Shown piece by piece: positions 61,932 to 62,928 of a stretch of DNA of 64,000 nucleotides; the stretch's first letter is position 1, and every line of letters begins with the position of its first letter. The DNA is from Planctomycetota bacterium (GTDB lineage: Bacteria > Planctomycetota > J058 > J103). The notes under the pieces were generated by a model, which made no database searches, was not told where the DNA came from, and saw nothing but the letters and a program-made list of their open reading frames with translations. The position numbers and the translations under genes were made by a program. The stretch spans positions 693,482 through 757,481 of the forward strand of contig BPJM01000001.1 in assembly GCA_026004615.1 (NCBI GenBank), given 5' to 3'.

Positions 61932-62928
61932 ATGCGCTCGATCGCTGCCTCCGGCGCGGCGCTCGTGCTCGCCGCAGCCGGGTTGCTGGCTGGAGCCGCC
62001 GTGCCCGCCCGCGCCGCGGGCAAGAGTTTCCTCGGCCAGCGGCCCCCCCGAAATCGCCGCCGCGCGCTGGGTGAACACCGAACCGCTGGAGCTGGCGCGG
62101 CTGCGCGGCCGGCTGGTGCTCATCGAGTTCTGGTCGCCGGGCTGAGGGCCATGCCGTGCGGCGGTGCCGCACCTCAACGAGCTGCACACCAAGTACGGCC
62201 CCCGGGGGCTGGTCATCGCGGCGCTCACCCAGAGCGCGACCGACAGCTTCCTCAAGGAGCACAAGATCGCCTACCCGGTCGGCATCGGCGGCGGCAGCTT
62301 CGCGGCCTATGGGGTGACCGGCATCCCCCAGGTCTACCTGGTCGGCCCCGACGGCCGGGTGGTGTGGGAGGGCCATACCAGCGGGCTGACCGAGGCGCTG
62401 ATCGAACAGCACCTGCAGCAGGTGGTGGTGTTTCCCGAGCGCGAGCAGTGGCCGCGCGTGCTCGAGCCGGCGGCGAGGGCGGCGCAGGCCGGCAGGCTCG
62501 GCGAGGCGTGGCGCAAGCTCGAGCGGCTGGGAGAGCTCCAGGGCGAGGAGGCCGAGGCGCAAGCGGCGCTCCGCTCCTACATCGAGCGCAAGGCCGAGGC
62601 GGTGCGGCGCGCGGTCGAGGCCGCGGTCGCCGAGGGCGACTATTACGCCGCGCAGGCCGAGCTGCGGGCGCACGAGCGCGCCTTCCAGGGGCACCCGTTC
62701 GGCGAGCAGATCGAGGAGCGGCTGCGCGCGTTCAAGCGCGATCCCGAGATCCAGAAGGCGATCCGGGCCGGCGCGCTGTTCGAGCAGGCCCAGGCCCTCG
62801 AGGCCCAGGGAGATCTCCGGCGCGCGCTGGGGTACTACGCGCAGGCGGCCAAGGTCGGCGAGGGCACGAAGGCCGGTGCGCGCGCGCGCGAGCGGGCCGA
62901 GGCGCTGGCGGCAAAGCTGGGGCGGTAG
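61932..62928 (+). CDS. Exported TlpA/redoxin-like protein, probable selenoprotein (UxxC), one +1 frameshift
   Basis: 331 residues after removing one C from a C7 run (62043-62049) and reading TGA at 62143-62145 as an amino acid. ATG at 61932 has AGGAGGAGGA 6 nt upstream; a signal peptide covers about residues 1-30. The thioredoxin fold follows: 'LVLIEFWSPG', position 71 encoded by TGA, then 'GPCRAAVPHLNELH' with C74. This makes a U-G-P-C site where TlpA/ResA proteins have C-x-P-C, and the cis-Pro region is intact ('VTGIPQVYLVGPDG'). The C-terminal 170 residues are charged helices ('AEAVRRAVEAAVAEGDYYAAQ') resembling TPR-like arms. It should reduce or isomerise disulfides in the periplasm. Selenocysteine is inferred from the TGA position and the downstream hairpin; a TGC-to-TGA error or mutation is the alternative. 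Confidence 0.7.
62156..62172 (+). promoter_or_regulatory. Candidate bacterial SECIS hairpin
   Basis: GTGCGGC, loop GGT, GCCGCAC: a perfect 7-bp stem beginning 10 nt after the TGA. Bacterial SECIS elements are short hairpins within about 40 nt downstream of the UGA with a G (commonly GGU) in the apical loop; in E. coli fdhF a 17-nt apical hairpin with GGU in its loop starts 11 nt after UGA. The stem uses an Arg CGT codon (62155-62157), the only CGT I find among about two dozen Arg codons of this gene. Its T pairs with the A of the His codon CAC. Confidence 0.6.

Follow-up and report, generated by a model that had tools for sequence, protein, structure and literature searches.

In the thioredoxin fold the first Cys of a CxxC motif is the exposed nucleophile; Sec at this position is a more reactive, low-pKa nucleophile, and the second Cys resolves the mixed selenenylsulfide. 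Published lists (PMC1088965, PMC2398784, PMC13188914 Table 1) already include UxxC selenoproteins of the TlpA/redoxin kind, with MGB1650493.1 and HEU0032618.1 as reference sequences for the cd02966 / PF08534 families. These selenoproteins (cd02966, thiol-disulfide isomerase-like; PF08534, Redoxin-family / Prx-like 3) have the same TlpA/redoxin fold, with Sec for the first Cys of CxxC, as the protein described here, which we found in a 64,000-nucleotide stretch of Planctomycetota DNA (hereafter the window). They are listed without a C-terminal helical arm or a Planctomycetota distribution, and may overlap with the window family.

The ResA/TlpA oxidoreductases (PDB 4nmu, 1st9) resemble the window protein in their N-terminal fold, CxPC-type site, cis-proline loop and, as predicted for the window protein, export, but the window protein almost certainly has Sec for the first Cys and has an extra helical arm of 165 residues; it misses the cut-off of the NCBIfam ResA model (NF002854) with 63.9 of 170 bits. 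NF041054 (WAxxUGC_long, ‘UGC-containing TlpA’) likewise has an active-site Sec within a ResA-like domain, but its motif is UGC, one residue shorter than the UGPC predicted here, and the window protein, at 36.4 bits, falls short of the model's cut-off of 300. With NF041382 (VPGUxxT type 1) the likeness lies in the C-terminal half, which was matched by 31 of 79 family members (best E 6e-23) and by 20 of 45 family arms searched alone, whereas the thioredoxin domain and the Sec motif (VPGUxxT) differ. These partial C-terminal matches occur in relatives only; the window protein itself gave no match to NF041382 (cut-off 350 bits). Because the arm is common to the family and to the VPGUxxT selenoproteins, sequence similarity suggests that it is one module joined to two different Sec-containing thioredoxin domains.

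None of the NCBIfam selenoprotein models reached its cut-off for the five family members checked in detail. A literature search returned no paper linking Planctomycetota with this TlpA-arm family; a Planctomycetes genome paper gives selenoprotein candidates of two species in its supplement (PMC4807772). The initial annotation had called the protein possibly undescribed. That holds in part: the UxxC TlpA/redoxin kind is already listed (PMC13188914 Table 1), while the two-domain Planctomycetota subfamily is unnamed there. The chemistry is thus known, and the two-domain architecture and phylum-wide spread are apparently uncatalogued, no description having been found. What is new is this spread, together with SECIS hairpins whose apical loops fall into four or more registers (+16-18, +21, +29-30 and +34).

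Gene layout and the in-frame TGA codon

The gene frame (62047-62928, + strand) contains an in-frame TGA at 62143-62145 in the context ...LIEFWSPG-TGA-GPCRAAVPHLNEL... and, translated in a single frame, reads PEIAAARWVNTEPLELARLRGRLVLIEFWSPG-TGA-GPCRAAVPHLNELHTKYGP... up to the closing TAG. The TGA occupies the first Cys position of a ResA/TlpA-type CxPC site (F-W-S-P-G-U-G-P-C). The start codon and the signal-like stretch, which begin at 61932, are in a different frame from the active site, and the two frames meet by a one-base change in a run of seven C. The relative L018 (genome G001, same taxonomic family; 71% identity to the window protein across the matched part) reads ...SFLGQRPPEIEAQRWIN...FWSPG-TGA, in one frame from the signal peptide via SFLGQRPPEI to the TGA. 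Since L018 needs no frame change there, the window's additional C is likely an isolated insertion or an assembly or sequencing error. The claim that a single homopolymer correction places an in-frame TGA on the first Cys of C-x-P-C was borne out by this comparison. The features of the locus and the evidence for each are as follows.

61932..62042, + strand: start codon and signal-peptide-like N-terminus (MRSIAASGAALVLAAAGLLAGAAVPARAAGKSFLGQR), first frame (sequence and translation; L018 continues uninterrupted from the same stretch)
62043..62049, + strand: C7 run with one-base frame change, likely an assembly or sequencing insertion (frame comparison with L018)
62047..62430, + strand: TlpA/ResA-like thioredoxin-fold domain with cis-Pro motif GIP (Pfam; ResA 4nmu by sequence and fold)
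62143..62145, + strand: in-frame TGA, almost certainly read as selenocysteine, at the first Cys of CxPC (TGA/TGC/TGT-only column; selABCD in genome)
62143..62154, + strand: predicted redox motif U-G-P-C (translation with TGA=U; invariant columns of alignment A2)
62156..62172, + strand: candidate SECIS hairpin, 7 bp, GGU loop (shuffles, RNAfold, identical in L018, bacterial SECIS model)
62434..62925, + strand: C-terminal all-helical TPR-like arm (AlphaFold model; weak TPR/YbgF/BamD matches, and NF041382 matches in relatives)
62926..62928, + strand: stop codon TAG (sequence)

Protein domains and predicted structure

The protein comprises two domains, a thioredoxin fold (N-terminal 127 residues) and a helical, TPR-like arm about 165 residues long. 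Pfam AhpC-TSA, Redoxin and Thioredoxin_8 all scored above their gathering cut-offs for the N-terminal domain (Redoxin PF08534: 33.1 bits, cut-off 26.6), and ResA 4nmu was the best PDB match both in the sequence search (E 2.2e-15) and in the fold search (E 5.5e-9). The AlphaFold model of the residues from 62047 on has a mean pLDDT of 96.3; in it, the arm (residues 130-293) forms eight helices with a mean pLDDT of 97. By profile search the arm weakly resembles TPR proteins of the YbgF/CpoB/BamD type, and a PDB fold search with the arm gave no convincing solved structure (best E 0.08). The arm was found in both Sec and Cys relatives. Both structural proposals of the initial annotation are upheld, membership of the TlpA/ResA group by the profile, PDB and AlphaFold results and the long helical C-terminal arm by AlphaFold and profiles. 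At the N-terminus, a hydrophobic stretch ending in ARA-A looks signal-peptide-like by eye.

Gene neighbours had no common theme (a MacB/FtsX-type permease and an M20 peptidase here; GAPDH and DUF1573 elsewhere), and no conserved one hints at a client. The DUF1573 gene, which belongs to a published selenoprotein family, lies near the family gene in L012 and L063, from two related genomes. A short Cys version made of one domain (FWATWCPPC), with no helical arm, is also encoded in the genome that contains the window (G000:C6:31482-31886).

Active-site codon across the phylum

We searched 392 genomes of Planctomycetota with a profile built from nine full-length TGA genes, and 305 of them gave a match at E 1e-20. 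In the 131 rows in which the active-site column was read, a count that still includes some duplicate loci, the codon was TGA in 109, TGC in 18 and TGT in 4, with no other codon and three gaps; the homologues thus carry only U or C codons here, as the initial annotation had proposed to check. Removal of near-copies left 77 TGA and 21 Cys genes. In alignment A2 the invariant columns are U/C33, P35, C36 and P94 (cis-proline loop). On a quick tree the Sec/Cys label switches at least 10 times, 7 of them required by well-supported branches; on this sequence-based tree, therefore, Sec and Cys appear to have been exchanged repeatedly in the family. Neighbouring family copies occur in several genomes (L086/L096, L156/L163, G125:C4), and in G272 the Cys copy L156 adjoins the Sec copy L163.

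Candidate SECIS hairpin

In the accepted bacterial SECIS model the apical loop is small, has a G near its start and lies 16-37 nt from the UGA (PMC13188914). In the window, the hairpin gugcggc-GGU-gccgcac (62156-62172) has seven perfect pairs, begins 10 nt past the TGA and has G in the first two loop positions, with the apical loop at +17, in agreement with that model. RNAfold of 62143-62185 returned exactly this 7-bp hairpin plus a lower UGAG/CUCA stem, so that the element described in the initial annotation, a perfect 7-bp stem with a GGT loop 10 nt past the TGA, was recovered by folding. As also claimed there, the hairpin costs the gene its only CGT: this codon occurs once among the 29 Arg codons of frame 62047-62928, and that occurrence is in the stem. 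L018, which has its TGA at the same place, carries an identical hairpin, and L010 a version shifted by one base. Rfam gave no match for the window hairpin.

The free energy of the window's 43 nt was unremarkable against dinucleotide shuffles (z -0.55). When synonymous codons were shuffled with the protein sequence and codon pool kept constant, 60 of 10,000 shuffles of the window gene gave an equally stable SECIS-type hairpin. In the same comparison across the family, SECIS-type hairpins past TGA proved much more stable than in the shuffles (group z -14.5), and those of the Cys relatives did not (-0.7). SECIS-type hairpins at or below -4 kcal/mol follow the codon in 44 of 77 TGA and 2 of 21 Cys genes (Fisher p 1.2e-4), and averages by taxonomic family gave Wilcoxon p values of 8e-5 for TGA and 0.11 for Cys. 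Total free energy of the 45 nt past the codon fails to separate TGA from Cys genes, whereas the SECIS-specific test does. As a group, then, hairpins follow TGA and not TGC or TGT, which agrees with the earlier suggestion of a SECIS element; 33 of the 77 TGA relatives have no canonical-type hairpin at or below -4 kcal/mol.

The signal splits into separate registers (loop at about +16-21 or about +28-34), and clades hold their own register: the window's group uses +17, one clade +18, another +21, and others +29-30 and +34. Counting only genes with a clear hairpin, at least 5 register changes are required on the quick tree. Among seven genes of the +17 register all seven pairs have changed on both sides; these genes were picked for having a hairpin, and the pair changes therefore illustrate rather than test the conservation of pairing. 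Pair-count support is weaker in the other two registers. In several TGA clades (the EKWATWU... and FFAYWU... groups; within L061-L170) no hairpin conforms to the accepted bacterial SECIS model.

Selenocysteine machinery

Selenocysteine machinery is complete in the window's genome (G000), as the initial annotation had asked to verify: all four of selA, selB, selC (tRNA-Sec) and selD were found. The tRNA-Sec lies on contig 9 (76.3 bits; called tRNA-SeC with anticodon TCA by ARAGORN), selA scores 512 bits, selB 249.9 bits (above cut-off, with extra pieces in adjacent frames) and selD 324.5 bits; selD is itself a selenoprotein gene, its TGA falling on the usual Sec position (GGUAGK). The selB gene is broken into several frames (G000:C3:309868-311775), as indel-prone sequence would give, and this fits indel errors in the assembly and its completeness estimate of 77.7%.

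Across the phylum, 227 of the 392 genomes (58%) carry tRNA-Sec, and 81 of the 91 genomes that carry a TGA copy have a tRNA-Sec match. Among the ten that have none, selA was found in 6, with selA and selB in G001 and selB and selD in G011; in two fragmentary TGA-copy genomes (77% complete), neither tRNA-Sec nor selA was found. No tRNA-Sec, selA, selB or selD was found in G015, whose family copies are Cys only. This genome had been a candidate for a TGA copy without Sec machinery and was rejected as such: the TGA there terminates the gene itself, and the site reads CPPC.

Alternative readings of the TGA

The TGA might be a miscalled TGC, the protein then being an ordinary Cys TlpA protein, and the assembly gives some grounds for suspicion, with a likely homopolymer indel in the same gene (62043-62049) and a selB split into frames. 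Indel errors, however, yield no substitution precisely at one codon, the same TGA is present in dozens of other genomes, one from the same taxonomic family included, and a SECIS-type hairpin follows the TGA and not the Cys versions. We therefore regard an error as very unlikely; the initial annotation had already judged a random TGC-to-TGA change at this codon less likely. It is also highly improbable that the TGA is a true stop and the locus either a pseudogene or the source of the downstream ORF only (GTG 62164-62928). A mechanically called ORF does begin at GTG 62164, shortly past the TGA, but its product would have neither the active site nor the first strand of the thioredoxin fold; moreover, the sequence on both sides of the TGA is conserved across the phylum with the TGA always in the Cys column, and GC3 is alike before and after it (0.94 and 0.95).

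Decoding of UGA as another residue (e.g. Cys or Trp), by readthrough or a reassigned code, would accommodate the 33 of 77 TGA relatives in which no canonical SECIS hairpin reaches -4 kcal/mol. This reading is very unlikely given that the Sec machinery is complete in the genome, that copies are Cys-only where the machinery is missing, that TGA is limited to one redox position and is also a stop in relatives (G015), and that selD of the same genome has TGA at a known Sec position. All three alternatives were rejected on the homologue, hairpin and Sec-machinery evidence. The TGA position, the U/C-only column, the Sec machinery, the hairpin enrichment and the fold are computed directly, and from the sequence evidence TGA 62143-62145 is almost certainly read as selenocysteine. 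Every named test that was run came out in favour of the initial annotation, whose overall interpretation is thereby supported.

Proposed mechanism

We consider it very probable, from sequence and predicted structure, that the gene encodes an exported selenoprotein in which SelB and Sec-tRNA decode UGA with the hairpin's help, with a UGPC redox site and a TPR-like arm. SelB with Sec-tRNA would decode UGA 62143-62145, aided by the mRNA hairpin at 62156-62172, and so place Sec where a ResA/TlpA-type site (UGPC) has its exposed nucleophile, the first position. Because its N-terminus is signal-like, the protein should act outside the cytoplasm, where its selenol and thiol would together act on disulfides (or other oxidised substrates) of client proteins, either reducing or exchanging them, by way of a selenenylsulfide intermediate. 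Our best guess for the TPR-like helical arm is that it holds a client or partner. In this scheme we infer actual Sec insertion, export, the direction of redox catalysis and client binding by the arm.

Implications for selenium use in Planctomycetota

Standard annotation truncates selenoprotein genes unless a family model exists. Because this family occurs in most of the genomes sampled and meets no model's cut-off, selenium use in Planctomycetota is probably understated; the 227 of 392 genomes that carry tRNA-Sec contrast with the few Sec-using planctomycetes mentioned in the literature found. Tentatively, and with rather less than even confidence, we propose that the family may constitute a phylum-wide, multi-copy, Se-dependent extracytoplasmic redox system in which TlpA domains carry a TPR-like arm, and that annotation may have overlooked it since UGA truncates its genes. 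Its SECIS would have moved or re-arisen several times (+16-18, +21, +29-30, +34), and some clades would use an element outside the accepted bacterial model. The family raises the question of the role of a Sec-based thiol reductase outside the cytoplasm, and it offers a natural series for studying the origin and movement of SECIS elements within one gene.
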